From an uncultured Flavobacteriaceae bacterium (GTDB lineage: Bacteria > Bacteroidota > Bacteroidia > Flavobacteriales > Flavobacteriaceae), in NCBI GenBank assembly GCA_938020445.1, contig CALIIC010000060.1:1-64000 (forward strand): a DNA stretch of 64,000 nucleotides. The letters run 5' to 3'. A model generated the notes under the pieces. The model was not told where the DNA came from. It was given only the letters and a program-made list of their open reading frames with translations, and ran no database searches. The position numbers and the translations under genes are program-made. Positions 2,382 through 22,296 of this stretch are shown one piece after another (within the stretch, counting starts at the first letter, position 1; the number at the start of each line of letters is the position of its first letter).

Positions 2382-2466
2382 CGGAGGAAGAGGGATTCGA
2401 ACCCCCGGAGGTGTGACCCTCAACAGTTTTCAAGACTGCCGCATTCGACCACTCTGCCATTCCTCC
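2382..2466 (-). tRNA. tRNA-Ser(UGA)
   Basis: 85-nt tRNA on the minus strand. The acceptor stem GGAGGAA/TTCCTCC has discriminator G. The anticodon stem-loop is GCAGT-CTTGAAA-ACTGT with anticodon TGA, decoding UCA. There is a long variable arm (GAGGG/CCTC), as expected for serine, and a T-arm GGGGG-TTCGAAT-CCCTC. CCA is not encoded. A promoter box lies 44 nt upstream and a terminator directly downstream. Confidence 0.96.
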
Positions 2467-16610: not shown

Positions 16611-17270
16611 ATGACCAAAGCGGAAAGAGTTGCCTTTACAATTAGTACGTTGCAGGAACTCTACCCTGTAATTCCCGTTCCCTTAGACCATAAAGATCCT
16701 TATACATTGCTGATTGCCGTGTTACTTTCTGCGCAAAGTACCGATGTTCGGGTTAATAAAATCACTCCCCTTCTCTTTAAGGAAGCCGACAATCCGTACG
16801 ACATGATTAAATTATCGGTCGAAGAAATACGGGAAATTATAAGACCGGTGGGACTTTCCCCTATGAAGTCAAAGGGAATTTATGGTCTTTCAAAAATTCT
16901 GATAGAAAAATACGATGGGCACGTACCAAAAGATATTGCGCTTTTAGAGGAATTGCCCAGTGTAGGTCATAAGACTGCCAGCGTGGTTGTTTCCCAAGCA
17001 TTTGGAATTCCTGCTTTTCCGGTGGACACGCATATTCATCGTTTGATGTATCGCTGGGGATTTACAAACGGAAAAAACGTCGTTCAAACAGAAAAAGATG
17101 CAAAGCGACTATTTCCCAAAGCGATATGGAACGACTTACATCTGCAGATGATATGGTATGGAAGGGAATATTCTCCTGCTCGCGGATGGGATCTGGAAAA
17201 GGACATTATTACCAAAAAGATTGGCAGAAAAACAGTTCTAAATGATTATTACAAAACAAAAAAGCCCTGA
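16611..17270 (+). CDS. nth: Endonuclease III-family DNA glycosylase without an Fe-S motif (219 aa)
   Basis: Base-excision repair enzyme removing oxidised pyrimidines with AP-lyase activity. The helix-hairpin-helix LPSVGHKTA supplies the catalytic Lys121, and VDTHIHR supplies Asp139. The N-terminal part (LLSAQSTDVRVNKITP) is typical of the family. The C-terminus, where E. coli Nth binds a [4Fe-4S] cluster through four cysteines, has none: it reads YGREYSPARGWDLEKDII and continues without Cys. The protein therefore lacks the cluster. The stop codon sits inside a strong terminator hairpin. Confidence 0.9.
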   Translation: MTKAERVAFTISTLQELYPVIPVPLDHKDPYTLLIAVLLSAQSTDVRVNKITPLLFKEADNPYDMIKLSVEEIREIIRPVGLSPMKSKGIYGLSKILIEKYDGHVPKDIALLEELPSVGHKTASVVVSQAFGIPAFPVDTHIHRLMYRWGFTNGKNVVQTEKDAKRLFPKAIWNDLHLQMIWYGREYSPARGWDLEKDIITKKIGRKTVLNDYYKTKKP

Positions 17271-17292
17271 CGGTAACCGTCAGGGCTTTTTT
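17258..17292 (+). terminator. Strong bidirectional terminator overlapping the nth stop codon
   Basis: AAAAGCCCTGACGG (17260-17273) pairs perfectly with CCGTCAGGGCTTTT (17277-17290) around TAA, with A and T runs on either side. The nth stop TGA is within the first arm. It also closes the first sigma-factor cassette on the minus strand. Confidence 0.92.
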
Positions 17293-17307
17293 CGAATCTG
17301 TTCGTTC

Positions 17308-17451
17308 TTAATTCAAATTGTTCTCAAAACTAAGGTTACCACACTCAACGATGTGAAGCGATTTCGAAAAATCCAATAGGAACTTCACCGTTTCTGGGCA
17401 CGCCTTGGTTAATTTACAATCTTTTTGATTTTTAGCGTAGATTTTTTCCAT
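17308..17451 (-). CDS. 47-aa small protein paired with ECF sigma factor (copy 1)
   Basis: A 47-aa protein starting MEKIYAKNQKDCKLTKACPE and ending in SFENNLN. It lies 72 nt downstream of a sigma-factor gene on the same strand, just before the terminator at 17258-17292. A paralogue of identical length lies in the same place behind the neighbouring sigma gene (18466-18609). By direct comparison 30 of 47 residues match, including YA, CKL, PET, FLLD, SKSLH and the C-terminal NLN. There is no signal peptide or membrane helix. Conservation of length, reading frame and position shows that it is a real gene. The function is unknown; a regulator or accessory of the sigma factor is the obvious idea but is unproven. 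Confidence 0.8.
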   Translation of the reverse strand: MEKIYAKNQKDCKLTKACPETVKFLLDFSKSLHIVECGNLSFENNLN

Positions 17452-17471
17452 ATTGATAATCGTATAGTTAT

Positions 17472-17480
17472 ACTAAGATA
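17472..17480 (-). promoter_or_regulatory. Candidate promoter element TATCTTAGT before small protein copy 1
   Basis: Minus-strand TATCTTAGT, 20 nt before the 47-aa ORF. The same nonamer lies before copy 2 (18644-18652), whereas the rest of the two spacers is poorly conserved. TATCTTAG differs by one base from TAnnTTTG, so it may be an internal promoter. Confidence 0.35.
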
Positions 17481-17523
17481 ACGCCATCAATATGTAAATA
17501 TTGTTTTACCCTAAGCAAGTTCC

Positions 17524-18105
17524 CTAACTCGTAAGGACGATATTGTTTTTATCGATTATTTTTCGAAGGTTGATCAGGGCATAACGCATTCTTCCAAGCG
17601 CTGTGTTTATGCTTACTCCCGTGTTTTCTGAAATTTCTTTAAAGCTCATATCTTTATAAATCCGCATCAACAAAACTTCTCGTTGATCATCTGGCAATTC
17701 ATCTATCAATAAACGTAAATCAGTATCAATTTGGTCTTTTATGAGTTGTTTCTCAGCATTCAATTTATCATCTCCGATTACCGAAAAGATGTTGAAGTCC
17801 TCATTGCCTTCGAACATCGGCATTCTTTTATTTCTTCTAAAGTGATCTATGATCAAGTTGTGTGCAATTCGCATTACCCAAGGCAAAAACTTACCTTCTT
17901 CGCTATACGTTCCTTTTTTAAGGGTTTTGATTACCTTAATAAAAGTATCCTGGAAAATATCTTCGGTAACATCCCTATCCAATACTTTTGAATAGATAAA
18001 ACTAGATATACGTTGATTATGCCTGTTGATCAATATTTCTAGTGCCTTTTCGTCACCACTGATAAAGTTATTTACTAATACTGAGTCTTCAACTTGAAAT
18101 TCCAT
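17524..18105 (-). CDS. ECF-type RNA polymerase sigma factor (193 aa, copy 1)
   Basis: Sigma-70 family factor of the extracytoplasmic-function group. Region 2 (about 25-95) includes the -10 recognition and core-binding segment DIFQDTFIKVIKTL and FLPWVMRIAHNLIIDHFRR. Region 4 (about 135-185) holds the helix-turn-helix MSFKEISENTGVSINTALGRMRYALINLRK. There is no adjacent membrane anti-sigma gene. Instead a 47-aa protein follows 72 nt downstream. By eye about three quarters of residues are identical to the second copy at 18684-19265, least at the extreme N-terminus and in the linker between regions 2 and 4. The 5' leader carries a hairpin (gcttttcg/cggaaagc, 18132-18152). Confidence 0.92.
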   Translation of the reverse strand: MEFQVEDSVLVNNFISGDEKALEILINRHNQRISSFIYSKVLDRDVTEDIFQDTFIKVIKTLKKGTYSEEGKFLPWVMRIAHNLIIDHFRRNKRMPMFEGNEDFNIFSVIGDDKLNAEKQLIKDQIDTDLRLLIDELPDDQREVLLMRIYKDMSFKEISENTGVSINTALGRMRYALINLRKIIDKNNIVLTS

Positions 18106-18411
18106 ACGAACTAGGTTTTGGTTAAGTAGGTGCTTTTCGTTATTCGGAAAGCTTCTGTTAGTTTTTTGGTTTTTTCTTACTAATACTTGTCTTATTATGC
18201 GACAGTTGTTATTTGTAATTATGACCTAAAACTACCCAATAGCCCTTGTTTTGAAAAAACATTGTTGTAAAACCGCTTGTTTTTGATGTGAAACGGCATT
18301 TTCTCAAACCTGAATACAATTTATCCGTTAATCGGTCGTTCGCAGGCTTTTCAAAATCATCGATGAACTACATCTTTTTATCCCTGTAGGAAACAAATTT
18401 TGACATTCAAC
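18106..18411. other. Leader and promoter region of sigma-factor cassette 1
   Basis: 306 nt without a gene between the two cassettes. It contains an imperfect hairpin at 18132-18152 about 27 nt before the sigma start, and a one-mismatch -7 box (minus-strand TAGTTTTA, 18234-18227). No exact TAnnTTTG is visible. I see no ORF or repeat that would suggest a lost gene. Confidence 0.45.
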
Positions 18412-18445
18412 AACAAAAAACCCCCATGATTGCTCATGAGGGTTT
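18412..18445 (-). terminator. Intrinsic terminator of sigma-factor cassette 2
   Basis: On the minus strand AAACCCTCATGA (18445-18434) pairs with TCATGGGGGTTT (18429-18418) with one G-U pair and a 4-nt loop, followed by a T run. It lies 20 nt after the small-ORF stop. Confidence 0.85.
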
Positions 18446-18465
18446 CCTTTATTTTTTTAAAATAG

Positions 18466-18609
18466 TTAGTTCAAATTGCTCTGAAACACGATTCCGTCTT
18501 TTTCAACGAAGTGCAGCGATTTTGAGTAATCCAATAAAAATTGAATTGTTTCTGGTTTTGCTTTTACCAATTTGCACTTCTTTTTGTTCGTTGCGTAAAT
18601 GTTTTCCAT
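18466..18609 (-). CDS. 47-aa small protein paired with ECF sigma factor (copy 2)
   Basis: Paralogue of the protein at 17308-17451 with exactly the same length. It starts MENIYATNKKKCKLVKAKPE and ends FQSNLN. The two share FLLD(Y/F)SKSLH in the middle. The protein is basic at the N-terminus. It begins 74 nt after the stop of the sigma gene at 18684, against 72 nt in copy 1. Third-position differences between the copies are common while protein motifs are kept, which argues for selection on the protein. A terminator follows directly. Function unknown. Confidence 0.82.
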   Translation of the reverse strand: MENIYATNKKKCKLVKAKPETIQFLLDYSKSLHFVEKDGIVFQSNLN

Positions 18610-18643
18610 AGTACCTTAGTATTGTTTTCAAATAGAGAACGAC

Positions 18644-18652
18644 ACTAAGATA
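18644..18652 (-). promoter_or_regulatory. Candidate promoter element TATCTTAGT before small protein copy 2
   Basis: Same minus-strand nonamer as at 17472-17480, here 34 nt before the small ORF. One base away from the TAnnTTTG consensus. Confidence 0.35.
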
Positions 18653-18683
18653 GAATTAGTTGATCTGTTCGACCTGCTACCAA

Positions 18684-19265
18684 TTAATTCGTTAAAACAA
18701 TATTATTGCGTTCAATGATCTTTCTAAGGTTGATCAACGCATAACGCATTCTACCCAAAGCCGTGTTGATGCTAACACCTGTAATCTCCGATATTTCCTT
18801 AAAACTCATATCGCGATAGATACGCATGAGCAATACCTGCTTTTGATCCGCGGGCAATTCTTCTATTAAAAGATTCAAATCACAATCAATCTGTTCTTTG
18901 ATCATCTGCTTTTCTATATTCAGACGATCGTCACTTACAAAAGAGAAAATATTAAAACTATCACTCCCTTCGAACATTGGCATTCTGCTAGTCTTTCGAA
19001 AGTGATCTATAATAAGGTTATGCGCAATACGCATTACCCAAGGTAAAAATTTCCCTTCTTCACTATAAGTACCTCTTTTCAAAGTGCGTATGACCTTAAT
19101 AAAGGTATCCTGAAAAATATCTTCGGTGATGTTCCGGTCATTTACTTTAGAGTAAATAAACCCACTGATACGTGAGTTGTGTTTGTTAATGAGGATTTCA
19201 AGAGCGCGTTCGTCGCCGTTGATGTAGTTTTTGATAAGTAGGGAATCGTCTATAAGTACTTCCAT
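18684..19265 (-). CDS. ECF-type RNA polymerase sigma factor (193 aa, copy 2)
   Basis: Second sigma factor of the tandem pair, same length as copy 1. Region 2 carries DIFQDTFIKVIRTL and FLPWVMRIAHNLIIDHFRK; region 4 carries MSFKEISEITGVSINTALGRMRYALINLRK. The DNA-contacting helix of region 4 is essentially identical in the two proteins, so they probably recognise overlapping -35-type elements. Divergence is concentrated in residues 1-20 and the segment around MPMFEGSDSFNIFSFVSDD. It is transcribed from an exact -7 box about 122 nt upstream, with a leader hairpin between. No anti-sigma gene is adjacent. Confidence 0.93.
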   Translation of the reverse strand: MEVLIDDSLLIKNYINGDERALEILINKHNSRISGFIYSKVNDRNITEDIFQDTFIKVIRTLKRGTYSEEGKFLPWVMRIAHNLIIDHFRKTSRMPMFEGSDSFNIFSFVSDDRLNIEKQMIKEQIDCDLNLLIEELPADQKQVLLMRIYRDMSFKEISEITGVSINTALGRMRYALINLRKIIERNNIVLTN

Positions 19266-19292
19266 AACAATTACTTTTTTTTTGGTTACAAC

Positions 19293-19320
19293 TACAGGCC
19301 TTCTTGGGGTAGAAGGTCTC
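19293..19320 (-). promoter_or_regulatory. Leader hairpin of sigma factor copy 2
   Basis: On the minus strand CCTTCT-acccca-AGAAGG forms a 6-bp stem in the 5' leader, about 30-55 nt before the start codon. Copy 1 also has a leader hairpin at a similar distance but with unrelated sequence. Confidence 0.35.
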
Positions 19321-19387
19321 TAAGGTTATTCCGTGAATTCTAAAAAAGTAATTGTTGAACTATAGGCTTTTAACGTTTTGTTACCAC

Positions 19388-19395
19388 CAAATATA
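19388..19395 (-). promoter_or_regulatory. Promoter -7 box of sigma factor copy 2
   Basis: Minus-strand TATATTTG, exact consensus, implying a leader of roughly 115-120 nt before the ATG at 19265. Confidence 0.5.
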
Positions 19396-19490
19396 GAAAA
19401 AATTAACTGGAACATCCAAATTTGAGCCATAAGAAGCTAAAAATTTGATAGTGAACCCATGCGAACATAGTTAAAAATACGTGGGTATTG

Positions 19491-19498
19491 TATCTTTG
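19491..19498 (+). promoter_or_regulatory. Promoter -7 box of uvrA
   Basis: TATCTTTG followed by CA, exact TAnnTTTG match, 17 nt before the uvrA ATG. Confidence 0.55.
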
Positions 19499-19515
19499 CA
19501 CCCATATATATAAGC

Positions 19516-22296
19516 ATGCCTACACTAGCAGATATCAACCCCAAGGAAAATATAATCATCAAAGGTGCTAAACTGCACAATTTAAAGAACATAGACGTAG
19601 TAATTCCGCGAAATAAGCTAGTGGTAATTACCGGATTGTCGGGTTCGGGCAAATCTACTTTGGCCTTTGACACTTTGTATGCGGAAGGACAAAGAAGGTA
19701 TGTTGAAAGTCTTTCTTCGTATGCTCGGCAATTTTTGGGCAAACTTGACAAACCCAAAGTCGACTATATAAAAGGTATAGCACCTGCAATTGCCATTGAG
19801 CAAAAAGTAAATTCTACCAACCCCCGTTCTACGGTAGGTACCACAACAGAAATCTACGATTATCTGAAATTGTTATATGCCCGTATTGGGAAGACAATTT
19901 CTCCGGTATCGGGGAATGAGGTAAAAAAACATACCGTCACCGATGTCATAAACCATATAAAGACCTATGAAACGGGAACCAAATTATTGCTAATGGCGCC
20001 CGTGACCATAAGTGAGGAGCGCGATACCTTAAAATCTTTACAGTTACTATCGAAACAGGGCTATGCGCGAATTAAGCATCAAGGAAAAGTGATGCGTATC
20101 GATGCGGCTCCCAGTGATATCGGAAAGGAGTTTTTCCTTGTCATAGATCGAATTATCACCCAAAATGATGAAGATTTTTATAACCGCTTGGCGAATGCCG
20201 TAGACAGTGCTTTCTTCGAAGGGAAGGGAGAATGTATCATAGAATCTTTGGTAGATGAGGAACAAACCTTCTTTAGCAATAATTTTGAACTAGACGGTAT
20301 GCAGTTCCTTGAACCGAATGTGCATTTGTTCAGTTTTAACAACCCTTATGGTGCCTGTCCTAAATGTGAAGGGTATGGTGATGTCATTGGAATTGATCAA
20401 GACCTTGTAGTTCCTAATACAGCGCTATCGGTATATGAGAACGCTATTTTTCCTTGGCGCGGTGAAAGCATGGGCGCCTATCGAGATCAATTGGTGAACA
20501 GTGCCTATACCTTCGATTTTCCGATTCACAAGCCATGGTTTCAACTATCGGACGAACAAAAGGAATTGGTATGGCAGGGCAATGAACATTTTATGGGCTT
20601 GCATCAGTTCTTTGGAATGCTTGAAGAGAAAAGTTACAAAATACAGAATAGGGTAATGCTCTCTCGGTATCGCGGCAAGACCCGTTGTACGGTTTGCAAG
20701 GGCAAACGCCTACGCCCCGAAACGAATTATGTGAAGGTAGCCGGTAAATCGATTTCCGATTTGGTCGAACTCCCTATTACCCAACTCCTTGCCTTCTTTA
20801 AGGAACTAGAGTTGACAACACATGACACTACCATTGCCGCAAGGTTATTAAAAGAAATAAATACACGCCTTGGTTTTTTGAGCAAAGTCGGTTTGGGTTA
20901 TCTTATGCTGAACCGAAAATCGAATACCTTATCTGGAGGTGAAAGCCAACGCATCAACCTCGCGACCTCGCTAGGAAGCAGCCTGGTAGGGAGCATGTAT
21001 ATTTTAGATGAACCTAGTATTGGGTTGCATCCTAAAGACACTGAAAACCTAATCGAAGTTTTACTGTCTTTACGCGATTTAGGCAATACGGTCATTGTGG
21101 TAGAGCATGATGAAGACGTTATGAAAGCGGCAGACCAGGTAATTGACATAGGGCCGGAGGCCGGTACCCATGGCGGTGAAGTTGTTGCCAATGGTACTTT
21201 TAAAGAAATTCTTTCTGCCTCTTCGCTTACCGCGCATTACCTAAATGGTGCTGAAGCCATAGAAGTCCCTTCAAAACGCAGAACTCCAAGCGGTTTCGTT
21301 CAAATTAACGGAGCCCGGGAGAACAATCTTAAGAATATAGATGTTAGTTTCCCTTTGAACATACTAACAGTGATCACCGGGGTTTCAGGAAGTGGCAAAA
21401 GCACCTTGGTTAAAAAACTACTGTACCCTATCATATTAAAAGAAGTTGGAGGATACGGGCAAAAACCGGGGCAATATACCTCGGTAGAAGGCAAATACCA
21501 GTCGATCAAACATGTTGAATTTGTTGATCAAAACCCTATTGGAAGGTCTTCACGGTCAAATCCGGTCACCTATATAAAAGCCTACGATGATATACGAAGT
21601 CTCTTCGCAGCACAGAAATTAAGCAAGATACGGGCCTATCAACCGAAGCACTTTAGTTTTAATGTAGATGGGGGACGCTGTGAAAAATGCAAAGGGGAAG
21701 GAGAAATTACGGTAGAAATGCAATTTATGGCAGATGTGCATCTTGAATGCGATACCTGTGGAGGAAAGCGATTTAAAAAAGAAGTCTTGGAAGTGAAGTT
21801 TGAAGAGGCATCTATTGACGATATCTTAAACATGACCATTGATGATGCAATTGCTTTTTTCGAAAAACACAAGCAGACCAAAATAACCAATAAACTAAAA
21901 CCCCTACAGGATGTTGGACTAGGATATGTCACCTTGGGACAATCGTCCTCTACCCTATCGGGCGGTGAAGCACAACGAATTAAGTTGGCCTCTTTTCTAG
22001 TAAAAGGTACCACCAAAGACAAAGCACTGTTTATTTTTGATGAACCCACGACCGGACTCCATTTTCATGATATCAAGAAATTATTGAAGTCCTTTGATGC
22101 CTTGATCGGTCGAGGCCATTCGGTGATTGTCATAGAACACAATGTGGAACTCATCAAATGTGCCGATCATATTATTGACTTGGGACCTGAGGGTGGTGAA
22201 AATGGCGGACAGTTACTGGTGTTTGGTACTCCTGAGGAGATTATACAGCATAAAACCTCTCATACGGCACGCTATCTCATGGAAAAGTTGGCATAG
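19516..22296 (+). CDS. uvrA: Excinuclease ABC subunit A (926 aa)
   Basis: Damage-recognition ATPase of nucleotide excision repair; it loads UvrB onto lesions as a dimer. Two ABC modules are seen: Walker [10 protein letters not shown] at 40-48 and GVSGSGKST near 621, with signature motifs LSGGESQRI near 471 and LSGGEAQRI near 814. Zinc-binding CxxC pairs occur near 280 and 391 (CPKC, CTVC) and near 721 and 746 (CEKC, CDTC). Length is normal for the family. It is monocistronic and divergent from the sigma-factor cassettes. Confidence 0.98.

Follow-up and report, generated by a model that had tools for sequence, protein, structure and literature searches.

Class I anti-sigma factors (RseA, RskA, ChrR, RsiW; zf-HC2-like families) are encoded beside their cognate sigma factor. 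In solved complexes, the fourth helix of the class I domain and the last helix of CnrY, a short class II factor, sit on region 2 of sigma (sigma2), and the CnrY helix has been likened to the class I fourth helix (PMC7406223). Class I anti-sigma factors were found near 6% of Bacteroidetes extracytoplasmic function (ECF) sigma factors versus 32% over all phyla (PMC7406223). ECF sigma factors with no apparent nearby regulator have been described as an open question, and soluble anti-sigma factors as products of truncation (PMC8103513). Among the Bacteroidota, PMC7712824 gives downstream genes as possible anti-sigmas for four of the six ECF factors of Porphyromonas gingivalis, SigP (PGN_0274) not among them; PMC7323717 presents a phylum-wide SigP tree, and PMC10951265 reports a single SigP homologue for F. 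johnsoniae. Here we analyse a 64,000-nucleotide (nt) stretch, the window, from an uncultured Flavobacteriaceae bacterium (GenBank assembly GCA_938020445.1, contig CALIIC010000060.1, positions 1 to 64,000), which carries two tandem cassettes, each an ECF sigma gene followed by an open reading frame (ORF) of 47 amino acids (aa). On balance we favour the view that each sigma factor is accompanied by its own soluble regulator, derived from a class I anti-sigma domain and reduced to a minimal form.

Both cassettes lie on the minus strand, between a uvrA-like and an nth-like gene, and read in that direction as follows:

18684..19265, minus strand: ECF sigma factor copy B (uvrA-proximal), 193 aa, with Pfam Sigma70_r2 and Sigma70_r4_2 above cut-off
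18466..18609, minus strand: ORF of the 47-aa partner peptide B, 30/47 identical to peptide A, with homologues family-wide
18418..18445, minus strand: terminator-like hairpin 3' of peptide B, a 12-pair stem with one G-U pair, GCAA loop and T run
17524..18105, minus strand: ECF sigma factor copy A (nth-proximal), 193 aa, with Pfam matches, 151/193 (78%) identical to copy B
17308..17451, minus strand: ORF of the 47-aa partner peptide A, with an AlphaFold helix at residues 19-33, then a short hairpin
17258..17292, no strand assigned: terminator between peptide A and the convergent nth-like gene, a 16-pair GC-rich stem with T runs on both strands, from a terminator scan

Re-reading of the letters bore out the architecture described in an earlier, sequence-only reading of this DNA: two sigma factors of equal length, each followed by a small ORF starting 72 nt (A) or 74 nt (B) past the sigma stop, and an intrinsic terminator behind each ORF. 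Terminator B was read directly from the letters and was not listed by the scan that gave terminator A. The 30 matches between the peptides compare with a maximum of 13 in 20,000 residue shuffles, while the sigma-peptide spacers have diverged, as that reading also held (62% identity versus 59% for a shuffled spacer). The selection check it had proposed indicated purifying selection: between the small-gene copies, the proportion of differences at synonymous sites (pS) was 0.82, near saturation, and that at replacement sites (pN) only 0.23; the sigma gene copies gave 0.86 and 0.15.

The small gene is a real coding gene: homologues are found behind the same sigma gene throughout Flavobacteriaceae and, more widely, in much of Bacteroidia. 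A single peptide query returned a match at an expectation value (E) <= 1 in 134 of 149 family genomes, own included, some of the weakest being chance matches in long frames. At 69 loci chosen through the peptide (29 returned by the search and 40 hand-picked, one per genome, skipping rows in long frames), all 80 sigma copies (80/80) were followed by a 45-50-aa homologue, counted from the last usable Met; since these loci were picked via the peptide, the count shows linkage and is not an unbiased rate. Named GTDB genomes yielded at least 564 confirmed stretches, and in all 80 loci retained (L154-L233) the sigma gene lay directly upstream, most commonly at a gap of 57 nt. When loci were instead chosen by sigma alone, the peptide homologue was found 50-275 nt downstream on the same strand in 28 of the 30 best (27 of 29 without own), six of the 29 being from the same family and all having also been seen by the iterated peptide profile; L132 and L145 are the two that lack it. 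These 80/80 and 27/29 counts, together with the pS and pN values, confirmed the earlier claim that both small genes are real. That reading had also named homologues mostly away from sigma genes, or frameshifts and stops in close relatives, as grounds for abandoning a functional pair; the homologues lie mostly behind sigma, and few of the rows shown contain an internal stop.

Beyond the family, a profile of 67 peptide rows (A1) had matches at E <= 0.01 in 84 of the 148 order genomes and at E <= 0.1 in 121 of the 247 class genomes, chance matches being among the weakest of the latter. At class level, and independently of the iterated profile, the class I property of lying beside the cognate sigma was seen in 43 of the 62 genomes for which both positions are given, the peptide being 74-440 nt downstream on the same strand. 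The 62 derive from 75 peptide rows (E <= 0.01, outside the order), a set limited to one match per genome and leaving out a row at exactly 0.01; 13 of the 75 have no listed sigma position. Reading the locus for seven of the 13 showed sigma upstream in six, and L114, a short contig piece, had none. A draw from the whole phylum gave matches in 25 of 198 genomes and no credible member outside Bacteroidia: the two extra-class matches lay inside long frames of 337 and 614 aa and were taken as chance.

Absences bear on the same coupling. Fifteen family genomes gave no match to the single peptide sequence, and sigma was present in 11 of them. A diverged peptide was recognised by eye behind sigma in nine of the 11, with the helix kept and the LN end often gone (L282 has a stop in the peptide frame, and L283 is less clear); L284 and L285 have sigma and no peptide. 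Of the four family genomes without a detected sigma, three had no credible peptide. The fourth, G067, carries a clear ~45-aa homologue between an nth-like gene and a contig end ~40 nt off, so the lack of sigma here may lie in the assembly alone.

In Flavobacteriaceae the peptide opens with a short M.K.Y segment, continues with a helix capped by proline (P..TI..LL.YSK.L) and closes with a conserved end that is usually LN and whose N is invariant across the 67 profile rows. Folded alone by AlphaFold, peptide A showed one confident helix (predicted local distance difference test 88 over residues 21-30) and a weak one at residues 2-6. In other lineages, the same position behind sigma holds proteins of 69-81 aa (once 173 aa) that resemble the class I anti-sigma domain. 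Among 40 sigma loci hand-picked from class genomes without an adjoining A1 match, at least 19 have a related small ORF behind sigma, and three more are likely by eye. Nine of the 19 are full anti-sigma-like proteins, eight were recovered via a profile of those nine and two via the peptide profile. The 173-aa homologue, in L235, overlaps the sigma stop and reads as having a membrane segment; it is possibly the ancestral membrane-bound form.

Sequence is continuous between these proteins and the peptide. The nine recognised one another in leave-one-out profiles (E 7e-11 to 8e-19). With their joint profile, all 25 top non-training places among 492 ORFs (38-180 aa, from 70 sigma loci) went to sense ORFs downstream of sigma, in a gradation from full anti-sigma-like to short forms. 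Alignment of the 47-aa profile with the nine by hhalign involved the last helix alone (E 1.8e-4, probability 48%), and adding two bridging 89-aa forms and one more gave a partly circular E of 1.4e-7. The bridging proteins (L112 and L120), found by the peptide profile beside an nth-like gene, combine a long N-terminal part with the YSK...LN end. Also in favour of such an origin, three of 12 long forms weakly matched NCBIfam NF052375 ('anti-sigma factor'; E 4.4e-4, 4.7e-4 and 7.6e-4). By sequence, the full pattern of a three-helix bundle plus a fourth helix is confined to the long homologues; the conserved P..TI..LL.YSK.L stretch corresponds to the last, sigma2-binding helix, and the first three are missing from the 47-aa form. 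Because this helix aligns, bridging forms exist and the equivalent helices contact sigma2 in solved complexes, we read the peptide as an anti-sigma remnant.

These results changed two earlier claims. The statement that no membrane anti-sigma is adjacent stands as worded, no anti-sigma gene with a membrane segment adjoining either cassette, but cannot be extended to anti-sigma factors in general, the longer homologues at the same position being anti-sigma-like. Likewise, the suggested undescribed sigma-regulating or co-acting peptide is indeed a dedicated partner, kept through a duplication and in no library searched, but it is probably not an unrelated invention: since the long homologues resemble the class I domain, a reduced anti-sigma is the most economical reading, and a regulatory role would follow from it.

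The peptide resembles class I anti-sigma factors in that its gene lies directly behind an ECF sigma gene and its long homologues share their size and, by reading, their helix pattern, including a conserved proline before the last helix. It differs from them in lacking helices 1-3 and, by eye, any zinc motif or membrane segment, and in having a conserved end of its own. As it lacks the bundle, and as matches to curated models stayed below cut-off, we do not file it as a class I member; we hypothesise that it is a reduced, derived variant acting like a soluble anti-sigma. Class II factors (CnrY, NepR) are similarly very short, with one helix proposed here, too, to bind sigma2. Unlike CnrY, which has a further helix for region 4 of sigma, the peptide has one confident helix beside the weak one at residues 2-6, and a PDB sequence search found no credible relatives of it or of the long forms.

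Several observations weigh against descent from an anti-sigma, or against inhibition. No curated anti-sigma model was reached above its cut-off, the three NF052375 matches scoring 19.5-20.3 bits versus a required 100. Weaker matches to a putative anti-sigmaE model (E 0.016 and 0.049) and, for one form, to zf-HC2 (E 0.022) are near chance because unrelated models scored similarly in the same scans (E 0.02-0.15), and the 47-aa forms matched neither a Pfam nor an NCBIfam family. No partner was recognisable at 18 of the 40 further sigma loci, and the peptide lay away from sigma in 19 of the 62 class genomes. Co-folding of sigma A with its peptide by AlphaFold gave a predicted template modelling score of 0.49, with the peptide helix less confident than alone; in a Foldseek search from this co-fold, the 50 rows listed were for the most part sigma factors and told nothing about the peptide. 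Across 220 sigma-peptide pairs (effective number 94), covariation between the partners did not exceed clade-preserving shuffles (2.60 versus 2.53, standard deviation (sd) 0.045, maximum of 60 shuffles 2.60). Finally, an anti-sigma without its first three helices might no longer inhibit.

Crl helps sigma S, and by its example the peptide might bind sigma yet aid it, the remaining helix having become a co-activator or stabiliser. We consider this unlikely: descent from inhibitors favours inhibition, and we know of no anti-sigma domain turned activator, no search for one having been made. Two points do speak for it, namely that the interface through which inhibition usually works is partly lost with helices 1-3 (PMC7406223) and that 11 of 13 anti-sigma-like long forms lack the C-terminal end with its invariant N.

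It is rather improbable, too, that the peptide is an output, a small effector merely transcribed with sigma. Such a role would suit the 19 class genomes with the peptide elsewhere, and the loci without an adjoining sigma: four of the seven read (L108, L112, L115 and L120, as opposed to L107, L109 and L114) adjoin an nth-like gene, which also adjoins the window cassettes. However, sequence continuity with anti-sigma-like proteins argues against it, as does the absence of the peptide along with sigma in three of four family genomes.

We give far less credence to the idea that what is conserved is a 3'-terminal RNA element of the sigma mRNA, with the ORF just its carrier. In the sister clade represented by the 80 named loci, synonymous codons in the last 31 codons of the ORF are far more fixed than in the adjoining sigma gene (synonymous identity 0.78 versus 0.49 expected; sigma 0.55), which points to a nucleotide-level element inside the ORF, and self-folding was somewhat stronger than in synonymous shuffles (mean z -1.6, n=26). 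The window's own clade shows no such constraint (0.42 versus 0.42, 31 copies), while its protein is conserved, as pS and pN indicate. A hairpin proposed inside the sister-clade ORF showed no covariation, and RNAalifold detected no structure. An overlapping ORF was rejected as the cause of this constraint, no other frame being open in more than one sequence. Base-pairing between the ORF tail and the leader of sigma was likewise rejected, being weak (mean z -0.8, n=26). That the small ORFs are chance frames, as their length below usual gene calling might suggest, has next to no probability, being refuted by the homologues in 134/149 family genomes (E <= 1) and 80/80 named loci and by purifying selection.

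The sigma factor itself passed the ECF test, with Pfam Sigma70_r2, Sigma70_r4_2 and Sigma70_r4 above cut-off in both copies and only regions 2 and 4 in ~190 aa. With sigma A as query, 223 of 247 class genomes matched at E <= 1e-25, with exactly one match each except own and G396 (two each). Judged by best hits and not by a class-wide tree, the window sigma is thus read as one orthologue throughout Bacteroidia. In a tree of 42 sigma sequences, whose bootstrap was not fully settled, window copy B clustered, at support 99/96, with the copies that are transcribed first in four other genomes, so the tandem pair is probably older than several genera. A single origin of the duplication is neither supported nor contradicted by the tree.

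Upstream of sigma B we identified a second conserved element:

19257..19397, minus strand: conserved leader RNA of sigma B, with GCCTATAG, then ATTACTTTT...AAAAGTAAT up to the start codon, taking in the first 9 nt of the gene
19388..19395, minus strand: TATATTTG, box of the Bacteroidota primary sigma (TAnnTTTG), 5' of the sigma B leader, from sequence

The box follows the consensus as stated in PMC9723704. The leader contains an exact 15-nt inverted repeat (19266-19280 / 19342-19356), and related leaders precede this sigma gene across the class. The hairpin is absent from the sequence-only reading. Words enriched 5' of sigma genes were the housekeeping box TATATTTG and GCCTATAG ... TTACTTTT ... 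AAAGTAA. Autoregulation of sigma was rejected as a candidate on these word counts, which are accounted for by box and leader and give no sign of a sigma-specific promoter.

Both stem arms were present in 83 of 99 leaders of single or first copies (a thinned set), the second arm ending 4-9 nt before the ATG, and in three of 16 second copies (not thinned). The stem covaries. Outer pair 3 forms in 60 of the 83 leaders, by five pair types, versus 35.0 (sd 4.2, maximum 48) in 1000 shuffles that do not correct for relatedness, and pairs 1 and 2 also exceeded all 1000. The excess was small for pairs 4 and 6 (25 versus 20.2 and 34 versus 29.5) and absent for pairs 5 and 7. R1, a model trained on 61 leaders, was run on 65 untrained loci and matched 28 of them at E <= 1, with 29 matches in all; 27 of these loci have a match at the sigma start. 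Outside this pattern fall L149 (E 0.32) and an additional match in L275, which is antisense. The leader model also matches L132 and L145 (E 2.7e-6 and 0.4), where no peptide is recognisable behind sigma.

In the window, the copy B leader scored 63.7 bits with R1, its row being in the training set, and copy A (18097-18236, minus strand) gave a weak echo at the sigma start only (16.4 bits, E 2.6). The two copies therefore probably differ in leader, or translational, control, and this difference is a likely reason for keeping both. Rfam at gathering score gave no match to the leader in 20 loci or at the window site; below threshold, one of 28 matches at E <= 10 in 17200-19600 touches the leader (mir-8, 17.9 bits, E 2.2). 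Among the open-licence PMC papers listed by our searches, no title or displayed start of an abstract describes the peptide or the leader; the supplementary table of 64 structured 5' regions in PMC9723704 may include the leader.

Returning to the reduced anti-sigma, we propose the following course. The ancestor would have had a three-helix bundle and a fourth helix binding sigma2; in Flavobacteriaceae, helices 1-3 would have been lost, leaving the short start, the proline-capped helix and the conserved end. Transcription would begin at the housekeeping promoter, whose motif is seen. The leader stem, a structure supported by covariation, could then limit translation of sigma B, as its 3' arm ends right before the start codon. 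The peptide, from its coding ORF, would be co-produced from the sigma transcript and, to judge from its descent, would bind sigma region 2 with the YSK helix as contact face and lower, time or delay its activity.

Here the partner of a conserved, class-wide sigma is shorter than the genes that are usually called, and the intermediates suggest a path by which an anti-sigma domain shrinks to one helix; the peptide would provide a small module for sigma binding of natural origin. A further candidate cis-regulator, matched by no Rfam model, is the leader RNA. A bolder version, which we regard as doubtful, is that this class-wide Bacteroidia sigma, possibly of the SigP type (type IX secretion), is held doubly, by a leader that hides its start codon and by a one-helix anti-sigma. 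Like SigP of P. gingivalis (PorX/PorY), the window sigma is an ECF factor of Bacteroidota, a likeness of kind, with orthology no more than a possibility. Were it true, such two-level control would help explain why few ECF sigma factors of the phylum seem to have an anti-sigma.

The cassettes are flanked by nth (endonuclease III)-like and bcp-like genes on one side and the uvrA-like gene on the other, names that come from reading translations, not from a search. Oxidative or DNA damage as the signal would be a guess from these repair-type neighbours. The own genome, a draft 82% complete, shows just two peptide copies, both in the window; a weak profile match at C4:5260-5343 (E 0.0017) was rejected as a third, being antisense to another gene. 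The sole Rfam match at gathering level in the window is a tRNA (2382-2466, minus strand).

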